Positions 15,064-63,952 of a DNA stretch of 64,000 bases are shown piece by piece. Source of the stretch: Paenibacillus sp. Soil522. Its GTDB lineage: Bacteria; Bacillota; Bacilli; Paenibacillales; Paenibacillaceae. Under the pieces are notes generated by a model. The model had not been told where the DNA came from. It did no database searches and was given only the letters and a program-made list of their open reading frames with translations. The first letter of the stretch is position 1. Each line of letters begins with the position of its first letter. Position numbers and translations under genes: made by a program. The DNA is taken from positions 220,601 through 284,600 of the forward strand of contig NZ_LMRV01000001.1 of assembly GCF_001428245.1 (NCBI RefSeq). Direction: 5' to 3'.

Positions 15064-16419
15064 ATGTACCGTCGACTCAGTTCAATTCTATTTCCGATTA
15101 TGTCCCTGCTTTTTATCGGCGCAGTTTACTGGGGCTATCAAGAGCATCAAGAAAAAAACTCGATATTGATAAAGGCTGAAAATCAGTATCAACGGGCTTT
15201 TCATGATTTAACTTATCATGTCGAGCAGTTGCATCAACAGCTGGGCAATACGCTTGCGGTCAATTCGACCTCACAAAGTTATCACCGCAAGGGGCTTGTG
15301 AACGTTTGGCGTTTAACGAGCCAAGCGCAAAATGAGATTAACCAGCTCCCGTTAACGCTGCTCCCATTCAACGAAGCGGAAGACTTCTTGTCGCGTATCG
15401 CAAATTTTGCATACAAAACAGCTGTTCGGGATTTATCAAAGCAGCCGCTTACGCCGGATGAATTTAAGACGATGAAGACGCTCTACGCTAATTCGGAGCA
15501 AATTTCAAATGATCTGGTCGGTATGCAGCGTGAAGTGCTGGCTAACCATTTACGCTGGATGGACGTAGAGATCGCTCTTGCCTCCGAGAAGTCGAACAAT
15601 GATAATAAAATCATTGACGGCTTCAAGACGGTTGACAAGAAGGTCAGCGAATATCCTGAGATCAACTGGGGACCTTCTGTAAGCAGCATGTATCAGAAGC
15701 GCACGATTCAGATGCTTGGCGGGAAAATGGTTACCGCGGAGGATATCAAGAAGCATGCCGCTAAGTTTTCACATGCACCGAATGCGGAAATCCGCGTTGT
15801 TGAAAATGCAAAGGGAACAGAATATGCTTCCTATTCGGCAACGGTAAACGAGGGGAAAAACAAAAAGCTGCAAATGGACTTCACGCAAAAGGGCGGACAG
15901 CTCATTTGGTTTATAAATCCGCGTGATATCGGAGAGAGAAAGGTTGACCTGGACAAAGCTAAAGCTTCTGCGGATACCTTCTTGGATAAACACGGATTTT
16001 CGGGAATGAAGGCCGTAAGCTACGATATGTTTAATAATACAGGCGCCTTCACTTATGTCAGCTTGCAAAGCGGTGTTCTCATTTACCCGGATAAGCTGAC
16101 GGTTAAGGTCGCGCTCGATAATGGCGAAACGGTAGGCCTGCAAGCAAATGATTACGTCTACGAGCATCATAAGCGCAAGCTGCCTAGTCCAATCCTTTCG
16201 AAAGCCGGGGCACGCAAAGCGTTAAATCCAGAGATGAAAGTACAATCCGAGCAATTGGCGCTAATCGACAACGATTTGGGCGAGGAAGTGCTTTGTTACG
16301 AATACACGGGAAAAATTAACGGCTCTCTCTACCGCATCTATGTCAATTCAGAAACAGGCTTAGAAGAATCGATCGAGGAAATGTCTCCCTACGATTCCAA
16401 GGCAGCTTCTGACAAATAA
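15064..16419 (+). CDS. ypeB: Germination protein YpeB
   Basis: Spore germination protein that in Bacillus is needed for SleB (cortex-lytic enzyme) to be kept and localised in the spore. It has one N-terminal membrane segment (RLSSILFPIMSLLFIGAVYWGY) followed by a long exported region with repeated PepSY-like units (for example VSYDMFNNTGAFTYV and LCYEYTGKINGSLYRIYVN). At 451 aa it is full length. AAAGGAGC precedes the ATG. The expected sleB gene directly upstream is absent; a SigG-like promoter lies in its place. The gene is followed by the PilZ gene as in B. subtilis. Confidence 0.92.
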   Translation: MYRRLSSILFPIMSLLFIGAVYWGYQEHQEKNSILIKAENQYQRAFHDLTYHVEQLHQQLGNTLAVNSTSQSYHRKGLVNVWRLTSQAQNEINQLPLTLLPFNEAEDFLSRIANFAYKTAVRDLSKQPLTPDEFKTMKTLYANSEQISNDLVGMQREVLANHLRWMDVEIALASEKSNNDNKIIDGFKTVDKKVSEYPEINWGPSVSSMYQKRTIQMLGGKMVTAEDIKKHAAKFSHAPNAEIRVVENAKGTEYASYSATVNEGKNKKLQMDFTQKGGQLIWFINPRDIGERKVDLDKAKASADTFLDKHGFSGMKAVSYDMFNNTGAFTYVSLQSGVLIYPDKLTVKVALDNGETVGLQANDYVYEHHKRKLPSPILSKAGARKALNPEMKVQSEQLALIDNDLGEEVLCYEYTGKINGSLYRIYVNSETGLEESIEEMSPYDSKAASDK

Positions 16420-16480
16420 CGATATGGCTCCCCTCAAATCGACGTGTTATAATGGCATGTAAATGGGGGGAGCCAATTTG

Positions 16481-61450: not shown

Positions 61451-62320
61451 ATGGCGCATGGTCATAATTCGAACGAGAAGGTTGTCTATGTAGGCGACTC
61501 GCGTGTTAAGAAAAGCAACGTTTCTAGCATTCCGCCGGACTATACGTCCTTCCCGGGTAAATCGGAAGCGTTTATTCCGAACTTCCTGCTTAAGGAATGG
61601 ATGGTCGGCTGTGTCGTGCTGGTCGGTTTTCTAGTATGGTGTATTGCGGAGCCGGCACCGCTTGGCTATCCCGCAGATCCAACGAATGCGGCTTTTATAC
61701 CGATGCCTGACTGGTACTTCTTGTTCTTGTATCAATTTTTGAAATATCCGTACGTATCGCAAGATTATATCTTGCTCGGAACAGTTGGTGTTCCGGGAGT
61801 ATTGTTCGGCGCATTGCTGCTTGCTCCATTCCTTGACACGGGTAAGGAGCGCCGCTTCTACCGCCGTCCAATTGCATCTTCCTTAATGGGACTAACGCTT
61901 ATTGCATGCGTGTATTTGACAGTTGTTTCTTGGGATCACTACACACATCAATTGGAAATCAACGGTCAAGTGCCAGAGCATCACGAACGTGAGGAAAAGG
62001 CTCGTGAAGCTGCTTTAGCAGGCCAAGAGCGTCCGAACTATACGAAGCCGGCAGTTGAAGCTGCGCTTGTAGATGCGAATGATCCGGCAATGGATATTGC
62101 TAAGCAAGCACAATGCGTTAGCTGTCATGCTGCTGACCTGAAAGGCCAAGGCTCTGTTCCTGGCTTGGTCGGTGTTGGCGACAGAATGACGAAGGAACAG
62201 CTTGTAGAGGTAGTTACGAACGGTCGTAACGGTATGCCTTCATTCGCTGATAAATTATCTGCCGAAGAAATTGACCAGCTAACAACATGGCTGTCCAAAC
62301 AGAAAGCGGCGACAGAATAA
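61451..62320 (+). CDS. qcrC: Menaquinol-cytochrome c reductase subunit IV / cytochrome c
   Basis: Fusion of a subunit IV-like membrane part (three helices, about 50-65, 105-125, 145-160; PMPDWYFLFLYQFLKYP) with a C-terminal cytochrome c domain. The haem c motif is CVSCH (C222, C225, H226) and the likely axial Met is in NGMPSF. 289 aa. Haem attachment depends on the ResABC system at the start of the window. ATG follows AGGGAGGG. Confidence 0.96.
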   Translation: MAHGHNSNEKVVYVGDSRVKKSNVSSIPPDYTSFPGKSEAFIPNFLLKEWMVGCVVLVGFLVWCIAEPAPLGYPADPTNAAFIPMPDWYFLFLYQFLKYPYVSQDYILLGTVGVPGVLFGALLLAPFLDTGKERRFYRRPIASSLMGLTLIACVYLTVVSWDHYTHQLEINGQVPEHHEREEKAREAALAGQERPNYTKPAVEAALVDANDPAMDIAKQAQCVSCHAADLKGQGSVPGLVGVGDRMTKEQLVEVVTNGRNGMPSFADKLSAEEIDQLTTWLSKQKAATE

Positions 62321-62326
62321 ATTAAC

Positions 62327-62358
62327 AAAACCTGATCGTATTACACGGTCAGGTTTTT
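62327..62358 (+). terminator. Terminator of qcrABC
   Basis: AAAACCTGATCGT pairs with ACGGTCAGGTTTT (one wobble) around ATTAC, followed by T. Confidence 0.8.
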
Positions 62359-62410
62359 CTTCGAATATAGAGCTGTATAATTAGAGATGCCGAAGGAGAA
62401 GTGGTTCATT

Positions 62411-63040
62411 ATGCTCGCTGCTTTCTGGAGCCGCGAATTTTTGCTTAACCGTTCATTTTTATGGCTGCTGTTTCTTGTTAATTTGGCAGGGACCATTTAT
62501 GGGTACATATGGTATGAAGGACAACTAATAGATACGCTAAATCATCACCCGATATGGCAAATCGTCTTTGTTCCGGATTCCCCGACGGCAAGCTTGTTTT
62601 TCACTATCGCTCTCCTTTATTTATTGTTTCCGCCGAATATGCCATATCGCTTGGTATCCATTGGACGCGTTATTATAGAAGCATTGGCTGTTGTGTGCTC
62701 GGTCAAATACGGCATTTGGGCGGTTTCCATGATTGTAGCAGGTGCGTGGCAGGGCGCTGACTTGCATTGGCAGCATTACATGCTGATTGCCTCTCATCTG
62801 GGAATGGCCTTTGAGGCGCTTCTTTTTTTTCGTTTTATGAAGGCTGGCGCTGTCTCTCTCTTGGCGGCAACATGCTGGCTTCTTCTTAATGATACGGTGG
62901 ATTATACGTTTAGCGTCTTTCCGTATTTGGCCGATGAGTTAGATGATGATTTAACGGCAGTACGCGCTTTTACATATGGTTTATCCTTCTTTAGCTTAGG
63001 TGCGTCTTTGCTCGTATGGCGCTTTAGAAAGAAGGTATAA
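62411..63040 (+). CDS. ypjA: DUF1405 membrane protein (YpjA)
   Basis: 209-aa polytopic membrane protein of about six helices. SLFFTIALLYLLFPPNMPYRLVSIGRVIIEALAVVCSVKYGIWAV and GADLHWQHYMLIASHLGMAFEALL match the DUF1405 (YpjA) family. ATG 62411 follows AAGGAGAAG at 9 nt. Its stop is only 4 nt before the hairpin that covers the ypjB start. Function unknown. Confidence 0.85.
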   Translation: MLAAFWSREFLLNRSFLWLLFLVNLAGTIYGYIWYEGQLIDTLNHHPIWQIVFVPDSPTASLFFTIALLYLLFPPNMPYRLVSIGRVIIEALAVVCSVKYGIWAVSMIVAGAWQGADLHWQHYMLIASHLGMAFEALLFFRFMKAGAVSLLAATCWLLLNDTVDYTFSVFPYLADELDDDLTAVRAFTYGLSFFSLGASLLVWRFRKKV

Positions 63041-63044
63041 CGCT

Positions 63045-63082
63045 GGACATCCCCTCATAGAGTGATCTATGGGGGGATGTCC
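63045..63082 (+). promoter_or_regulatory. Hairpin burying the ypjB ribosome binding site
   Basis: Left arm 63045-63061 pairs with right arm 63066-63082 over 17 bp (one G-U pair) with a GTGA loop. The right arm contains GGGGGG, the only ribosome binding site for ATG 63083, which starts at the next base. No U-tract follows, so it is not a terminator. Confidence 0.8.
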
Positions 63083-63952
63083 ATGAAGGTACGATTTATA
63101 GTTCCATTCGTCATTTGTATCGTCATGACGATCTGCTATGCTGGGTCAGTATGGGGCAATGGCGCGTCGATTAACCAGTATGCGAACCTGTTATCGTCAG
63201 ATCCATATATTCAACTACAGCGATTGGATGATATTGCAAGCTCATTATATGAAGCAGCTTATACGAGCAATCGTCAGGCAGGCTTTCAGCATGTCCAGCA
63301 GCTGCAGCGTGCCGTTGAAAGCGGACTTGTGCATTCATCGGGAAAGAGCGAGGGCTGGTCGGCTATCGAACAGGATGCCAATTATATCGAACAGAACCTT
63401 TTAAGCGGATCAACTGCTCCAGGCTGGTTAATGGAGGCTGCGCGCATTAGATTAGCTGCAGATGCGCTCGTTAGACCTGATCATGCGTTATGGCTGCAAT
63501 ACGAAAGTGTGATGCTGGACGATATATCGCGTGTAGAGAAAGCTTGGAAACGTCAAACTAATGATGGGGCGATCGCGGCTAGAGGCGCAATGACGAGCCT
63601 GCAGGAGCATGCGGAGCTTATAGAAACAACGATAAGCATGCTCTACGGCAGCATGCGTGAAGCAGAGCTGACGGAACGGATTGTTTATACAAATCGTCTG
63701 CTGGAAGCTCATGCAAATAATATTACGAATGAGGCGATGATTGATCGGTCTCTAGAGGCGTTAAAGGAGTCGCTTGATCGTTTATTTGACCAGAGCGGCA
63801 GCGCGGAGGTGCTGCCGGCCGCGGCGGCCATTCCAAACGCTAATCCATTAAGCTGGACGTTCTTTTTAGGAGCCCTTATTTCAGCTATTCTTACTTATTC
63901 AGGCTGGAGAAAATATAAGGCGAATCCGTTTGGCGTAAAGCCGCTGCCTTAG
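63083..63952 (+). CDS. ypjB: Sporulation protein YpjB
   Basis: 289-aa protein. A cleavable signal peptide (FIVPFVICIVMTICYAGSVWG), a helical exported domain (about 30-245) and a C-terminal membrane anchor (about 252-272, LSWTFFLGALISAILTYSGW) match the YpjB family. Order ypjA-ypjB after qcrABC is the same as in B. subtilis. ATG 63083 directly follows a 17-bp hairpin that hides its ribosome binding site. Role in sporulation is known only from the family name. Confidence 0.85.
   Translation: MKVRFIVPFVICIVMTICYAGSVWGNGASINQYANLLSSDPYIQLQRLDDIASSLYEAAYTSNRQAGFQHVQQLQRAVESGLVHSSGKSEGWSAIEQDANYIEQNLLSGSTAPGWLMEAARIRLAADALVRPDHALWLQYESVMLDDISRVEKAWKRQTNDGAIAARGAMTSLQEHAELIETTISMLYGSMREAELTERIVYTNRLLEAHANNITNEAMIDRSLEALKESLDRLFDQSGSAEVLPAAAAIPNANPLSWTFFLGALISAILTYSGWRKYKANPFGVKPLP

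Follow-up and report, generated by a model that had tools for sequence, protein, structure and literature searches.

A hairpin that probably silences ypjB on messages entering from ypjA carries a sigma-E-type promoter-like site in its 5′ arm

The transposase genes of IS10 and IS50 have a ribosome binding site (RBS) that is hidden in read-through RNA and exposed in own-promoter RNA, which guards the mobile element against outside promoters. For gene e of phage T4, a review describes a long early RNA that folds over the RBS, with lysozyme reduced 100-fold, and late promoters a short way upstream of the RBS whose RNA lacks the 5′ strand; in related phages a late promoter lies inside the stretch encoding that strand (PMC3014915). 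In Bacillus subtilis, sigG (spoIIIG) lies behind spoIIGA-sigE, and PMC5942855 describes a large hairpin whose formation is ruled out in RNA started at the gene's own promoter. Among sporulation genes, sigG is the only one for which our searches of open-access PubMed Central found such a lock described. Here we analyze the junction of ypjA and ypjB in a 64,000-nt stretch (the window) of the forward strand of contig NZ_LMRV01000001.1 from Paenibacillus sp. Soil522. We consider it likely that a hairpin at this junction is a read-through lock with a built-in bypass. In the open-access papers on ypjB and sporulation that were examined no description of the hairpin was found, the mentions of ypjB being regulon, probe or distribution lists.

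All features given below lie on the forward strand. ypjA (62387-63040; DUF1405, a homologue of LhaT) ends with the stop codon TAA at 63038-63040, and ypjB (63083-63952; Spore_YpjB), the putatively locked gene, starts with ATG at 63083-63085. The 42 nt of the gap consist of 4 nt followed by a hairpin. A first-pass annotation made from the sequence had described a 17-bp hairpin filling this gap (63045-63061 with 63066-63082). Folding confirms it and adds one U-A pair that captures the A of the ypjB ATG, giving a stem of 18 pairs (63044-63061 with 63066-63083, one of them G-U) closed by a GTGA loop (63062-63065). The left (5′) arm, 63044-63061, is the anti-RBS strand, and the right (3′) arm, 63066-63083, takes in the first base of the start codon, A, as well as the Shine-Dalgarno (SD) sequence GGGGGG (63071-63076). 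The minimum free energy of 63020-63110 is -39.7 versus a mean of -20.5 (standard deviation 3.1) for 200 dinucleotide shuffles (z -6.29), none of which was as stable. Among 303 gene starts called with a simple script on the same 363-kb contig, no upstream fold is as stable as this one (-35.9; mean -12.2, standard deviation 5.2). At least five of the six SD bases are paired at 83 of the 303 starts; since partial SD pairing is this common, only the strength of the ypjB hairpin is unusual. A ypjB start at the loop GTG (63062) was considered and rejected, as it is not kept in relatives and its frame, read by eye, is broken by a stop in one of them (L008).

The first-pass annotation missed that the left arm doubles as a promoter-like site, GGTATAA-N15-CATAGAGT, at 63034-63063. 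The -35-like element GGTATAA, of sigma-E type, occupies 63034-63040, and its last three bases (63038-63040) are the ypjA stop codon. The 15-nt spacer (63041-63055) makes up most of the left arm and contains the pentamer GGACA (63045-63049), while the -10-like element CATAGAGT (63056-63063) lies in the left arm and loop. Transcription generally starts about 5-8 nt past the -10, and from this promoter geometry we infer a start at about 63068-63071. With a sigma-E-type site placed in the left arm, ypjB RNA would be expected to come without that arm.

Sites of this kind occur at known sporulation genes of the same genomes: NVATAWN-N13-14-CATA was found within 320 nt upstream of spoIIIAA in 29 of 30 loci and of spoIVA in 28 of 30, the best including TCATATT-N13-CATACAAA and TCATAAT-N13-CATAAGAT. 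Judged by sequence, the ypjB site, written as GTATAAC-N14-CATAGAGT, is of the same kind; its -35 and -10 elements and their spacing match those sites, and the spacing fits the sigma-E gap of 12 ± 1 bp between blocks of 8 and 10 bp given in PMC517825. The tie to sporulation suggested by the first-pass annotation gains support from this site and from B. subtilis ypjB, which is listed in the SigE regulon in PMC3097244. Two motif candidates were rejected. GTCTAAA-N14-CATANNNTG as a general sigma-E signature gave 7 sites in 40 genomes; because 5 of them fall at ypjB, the exact GTCTAAA -35 is not general. GGACATCCCNNCATA as a dispersed repeat was present in 52 of 60 genomes; most matches lie at ypjA-ypjB and ten elsewhere: one before yabP in each of two genomes (G048 and G056), a site common to two others (G008 and G036) that comes without an RBS lock, and six single matches, of which the two examined showed no RBS hairpin.

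On these observations we propose that one stretch would serve both as a sigma-E-type mother-cell promoter and as the 5′ arm of a hairpin in which the ypjB RBS forms the 3′ arm. RNA entering from ypjA would contain both arms and fold, and YpjB would not be translated; the hairpin thus probably silences ypjB on such messages. During sporulation the embedded promoter would start RNA just past its -10, within the hairpin, and this short RNA, without the left arm, would have an RBS that can be opened and translated. The purpose would be to keep YpjB out of growing cells.

Folding of the two RNAs is consistent with this proposal. For this, the short RNA was modelled from a predicted start at 63070 and the long RNA was run in from ypjA. 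Opening the ypjB RBS and start costs 32.3 kcal/mol in the RNA from ypjA versus 6.4 in the RNA from 63070, and the SD has an unpaired probability of 0.0 in the former, in line with the RBS sequestration claimed by the first-pass annotation. The same gap was found in relatives, in 58 loci each from the same order and the same class (both sets are described below). Median opening costs for long and short RNA are 23.3 and 6.0 kcal/mol in the order, with a difference above 3 kcal/mol in 57/58 loci and above 6 in 50/58; in the class they are 14.2 and 6.7, with 51/58 and 39/58 loci above these values. When left arms were shuffled (one shuffle each), the median difference fell to 2.4 in the order and 2.9 in the class. 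In a replicate of 80 named loci, many of which are probably the same genomes as in the order set, 74 gave a site and a start, and 69 had a promoter-site score of at least 8; among these 69, the difference exceeded 3 kcal/mol in 68 and 6 kcal/mol in 56. RBS hairpins can also act as RNA thermometers or ligand switches, and a temperature switch was among the roles first suggested for this one. We give such roles almost no credence: a thermometer would need an opening cost far below the roughly 32 kcal/mol found here, and Rfam covariance models gave no match to 62300-63400 up to E = 1.

For the order set 60 genomes were searched; two had no ypjA match, and the junctions of the other 58 were all read. 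All contain CATA in the left-arm region with the -35-like motif 15 nt before it, at the same offset; CATA was the alignment anchor, so its own presence in 58/58 carries no evidential weight. Relative to CATA, TA stands at -18/-17 in 58/58 loci and T at +7 in 57/58, the -35-like motif ends in TAA (54 loci), TAG (2) or TAT (2), and the promoter-site score is at least 8 in all 58, compared with 1.6% of shuffles. By eye, both arms have changed and still pair in L037, L039 and L050. As side observations, the ypjA stop lies inside the left arm (TAG of CATAG) in L021 and L030, where the right arm is intact; L025 and L027 have an enlarged loop and keep the start of the left arm and the right arm; and in L051 an inserted sequence places the ypjB start, together with the element, 329 nt from the ypjA stop.

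The same junctions bear on translational coupling, which the first-pass annotation had offered as the purpose of the hairpin: ribosomes finishing ypjA would melt the left arm and allow ypjB to be translated on the same mRNA. The ypjA stop does lie 4 nt before the arm here, and it keeps this position in 40 of the 58 relatives, but this position coincides with the last three bases of the -35-like motif. In the other 18, the stop ranges from +2 to -286, counted from CATA, and the promoter-like site stays, its -35-like motif still ending in TAA in 15. A terminating ribosome would cover the arm to about 63052, and with that part covered a 9-bp helix (63053-63061/63066-63074) persists and holds the SD at an unpaired probability of 0.035. 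ypjB also has its own sigma-E-type site. Because the stop is variable and the inner helix remains, coupling is a weak account that we regard as improbable in general; it is possible within the own genus, where the stop lies 4 nt from the arm.

Next, the comparison was extended to the class. Of 200 genomes, 103 match PF09577 (the own genome included); 90 were fetched and 12 with weak matches were left out. The analysis covers 86 of the 90, as L246, L249, L250 and L261 had no CAT in the scanned stretch (L249 and L250 have a good site further up, and the chosen ypjB start may be wrong). A site score of at least 8 was obtained at 58/86 loci, from 20 of 23 families, against 1.6% of shuffles, and in 63/86 upstream sequence pairs with five or six bases of the SD. 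The layout thus recurs, as far as sequence tells, in many spore-forming Bacilli. Arm sequences are family-specific, for example TTGTCCTCCTTTCCATAG with GGGAAGGAGG and CTTGTCCTGTCCTCCATA with TGGAGGAGGGGACGG. We compared cognate arms with arms swapped between loci, using the 58 order loci and the 58 class loci with a score of at least 8, one locus per family, in 20 draws of 2000 permutations each; as the class loci were chosen by score, the result is conditional on the promoter site. With 28 families, the pairing energy was -18.5 for cognate and -14.3 for swapped arms, a difference reached by 0 of 2000 permutations in each of the 20 draws. For the 19 families outside the own order the result is weaker and more independent (-15.7 versus -13.7; 0 to 20 of 2000 permutations). 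Arm pairing is maintained by compensatory change across families, the very change that the first-pass annotation had proposed to look for in relatives. Control promoters of spoIIIAA (n = 21; -7.7 versus -7.0, 413/5000) and spoIVA (n = 27; -6.6 versus -6.4, 1240/5000) pair weakly and show no clear cognate advantage. A single spoIVA control locus pairs at -24.8.

This coevolution also bears on the palindrome as a DNA operator, in which two inverted GGACA sites would bind SpoIIID or another protein and the RNA hairpin would be a by-product. GGACA or TGTCC is present in the spacer of 51/58 order and 49/58 class loci, versus 2.1% and 4.5% of shuffled spacers; the form differs, 49 of the order loci having GGACA and 44 of the class loci TGTCC. 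GGACA also occurs in the spacer of 8/30 spoIVA loci and 0/30 spoIIIAA loci. We take the pentamer to be a SpoIIID-like site by its consensus, and a literature search on this assignment found nothing. B. subtilis ypjB is in the SpoIIID-negative list (PMC3097244) and was one of the probes in SpoIIID gel-shift experiments (PMC517825). Against an operator, the arms coevolve across families, the pairing covers the SD too, and TGTCC or GGACA is rarer in the right arm, in at most 17/58 class loci; we find this explanation hard to favor. The protein switch raised earlier would be possible only at the promoter, through the SpoIIID-like site.

A further alternative assigns the hairpin to the ypjA message, at whose 3′ end it would act as an intrinsic terminator or stabilize the mRNA, the overlap with the ypjB start being a coincidence. 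Runs of at least five Ts follow the right arm in 6/58 order loci (seven matched, and L027 was excluded since its Ts precede the right arm) and in 13/58 class loci. No T-run follows the right arm in the window, and a terminator scan called none at the hairpin; a terminator would block read-through, yet it leaves the placement of the promoter in the left arm unexplained. We judge this explanation least probable but for the thermometer and ligand switch. In lineages with a T-run, terminator and lock may both apply, and the palindrome may also terminate the read-through RNA, with the same outcome.

Several observations weigh against a lock with a bypass. The predicted short RNA takes less energy to open, yet its start region is not freely accessible: modelled at 76 nt, it leaves the SD unpaired with a probability of just 29% and the ATG, to which coding sequence pairs, with 0.5%. 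By this single measure the long RNA exposes the ATG more (25% unpaired). GGGGGG is not the best SD. The opening difference is small in 14 loci, at 3 kcal/mol or less in 7/58 class and 1/58 order loci. L018, L022 and L038 have a degraded left arm. In the class, 28/86 loci score below 8 (ten in family f21, six in f40, five in f27, three in f17, two in f39 and two in others), f21 keeping a strong hairpin despite its low site scores. Among the named loci, 11/80 lack a site of at least 8: four Saccharibacillus, P. hunanensis and P. aquistagni gave no start, and two P. terrae, P. humicus, P. zeisoli and one Cohnella scored below 8. As to relatives with the gene pair and no hairpin, the refuting case named in the first-pass annotation, most relatives keep the hairpin, and it is weak or lost in L018, L022, L038, f27, f40 and the four Saccharibacillus. 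Finally, primary sequence within the order is conserved more than pairing requires, from which it follows that a constraint at the DNA level also acts.

Similar layouts were found at other genes, and we lean toward a design rule in spore-forming Bacilli, whereby a gene with its own promoter, set tightly behind a differently timed gene, would maintain complementarity between its RBS and sequence lying at its -10 or upstream of it. All read-through RNA would then be locked, and translation would be confined to RNA from the own promoter. The candidates are ypjB, yabP and a DUF4227 gene, all with sigma-E-type sites, and, following ypeB, a PilZ gene whose hairpin loop holds TATAAT. For the last three, the swap tests treat related genomes as independent. 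yabP (PF07873) lies behind an S4-domain gene in G048 and G056, with the same left-arm motif as ypjB. In these two genomes of genus g12, the motif and RBS pairing stand before yabP at L068:1315-1380 and L069:1372-1437. GTTCTAA-N15-CATA was present in 20 of 30 yabP loci; two loci had no site, and for the 21 of 28 with a score of at least 7, cognate arms pair at -16.2 versus -15.1 (18/5000). No good site stands before yabP in the own genome (L197). Of 394 open reading frames surveyed on the contig, 21 had a sigma-E-like site near an SD-bearing start, led by ypjB (z -6.2) and the DUF4227 gene behind the alanine dehydrogenase gene (z -3.6); a third candidate is C1:118806 (z -3.4). The DUF4227 gene, presumably yqzK-like, has a lock-like element, GGCATAT-N15-CATATGGT, at L144:17619-17700 (G000:C1:197619-197700 in the own genome). 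Its site is present in all 29 of the 30 loci used (L376 was left out), and its arms covary (-18.2 versus -13.5, 0/5000), with five loci outside the genus (L374, L375 and L377-L379) pairing weakly.

At 16400-16480 of the window, a strong RBS hairpin lies between ypeB (spore germination) and the PilZ gene (at 16478), which we take to be ypfA-like, with TGTTATAAT in the loop. This may be a lock of the same kind, in which a promoter of vegetative type follows a forespore gene. The loop TATAAT is found in 22/23 same-genus loci and in 1/7 outside the genus; the remaining same-genus locus, L394, was misread at a contig end and kept in the test of 30, in which cognate arms pair at -23.1 versus -19.6 (0/5000). 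Elsewhere on the contig (G000:C1:119480-119546, L140), a small gene has its RBS in a hairpin followed by seven Ts and then ATG, a terminator form of the layout. If the proposal is true, tightly packed developmental genes could be kept silent without a terminator, about 50 bp would serve together as promoter, anti-RBS and probably SpoIIID site, and RNA levels of such genes would overstate their expression. That the layout is seen at further genes opens the way to a genome-wide test.

As for gene identities, ypjA passes the Pfam cut-off for PF07187 and ypjB that for PF09577, while they fall below the NCBIfam equivalog cut-offs for LhaT and YpjB, respectively. The closest named records are mostly Paenibacillus, the best six being 80-87% identical in YpjA. 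Upstream, Rieske, cytochrome b and cytochrome b/c genes are followed by a terminator-like stem at 62329-62361, recognized by eye and not listed by the scan, and then by ypjA. B. subtilis YpjA is needed for lipoprotein N-acetylation and has been renamed LhaT, according to PMC12345273.

Compared with the known systems, the hiding at IS10 and IS50, which protects a mobile element, differs from that at ypjB. T4 gene e has what is predicted for ypjB, an RBS hidden on the long RNA and an internal promoter whose RNA escapes; it is a phage gene with a T4 late promoter, whereas ypjB is a chromosomal sporulation gene with a sigma-E-type promoter site and a SpoIIID-like site. sigG has a hairpin confined to read-through RNA, as is predicted for ypjB, and differs in its sigma-F/sigma-G promoter and a second, small RBS hairpin, ypjB having a sigma-E-type site. 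For the putative ypjB lock, conservation and covariation extend over many families, unlike what is described for sigG. Our best reading of this comparison is that the ypjB element would work like T4 gene e and the large sigG hairpin.
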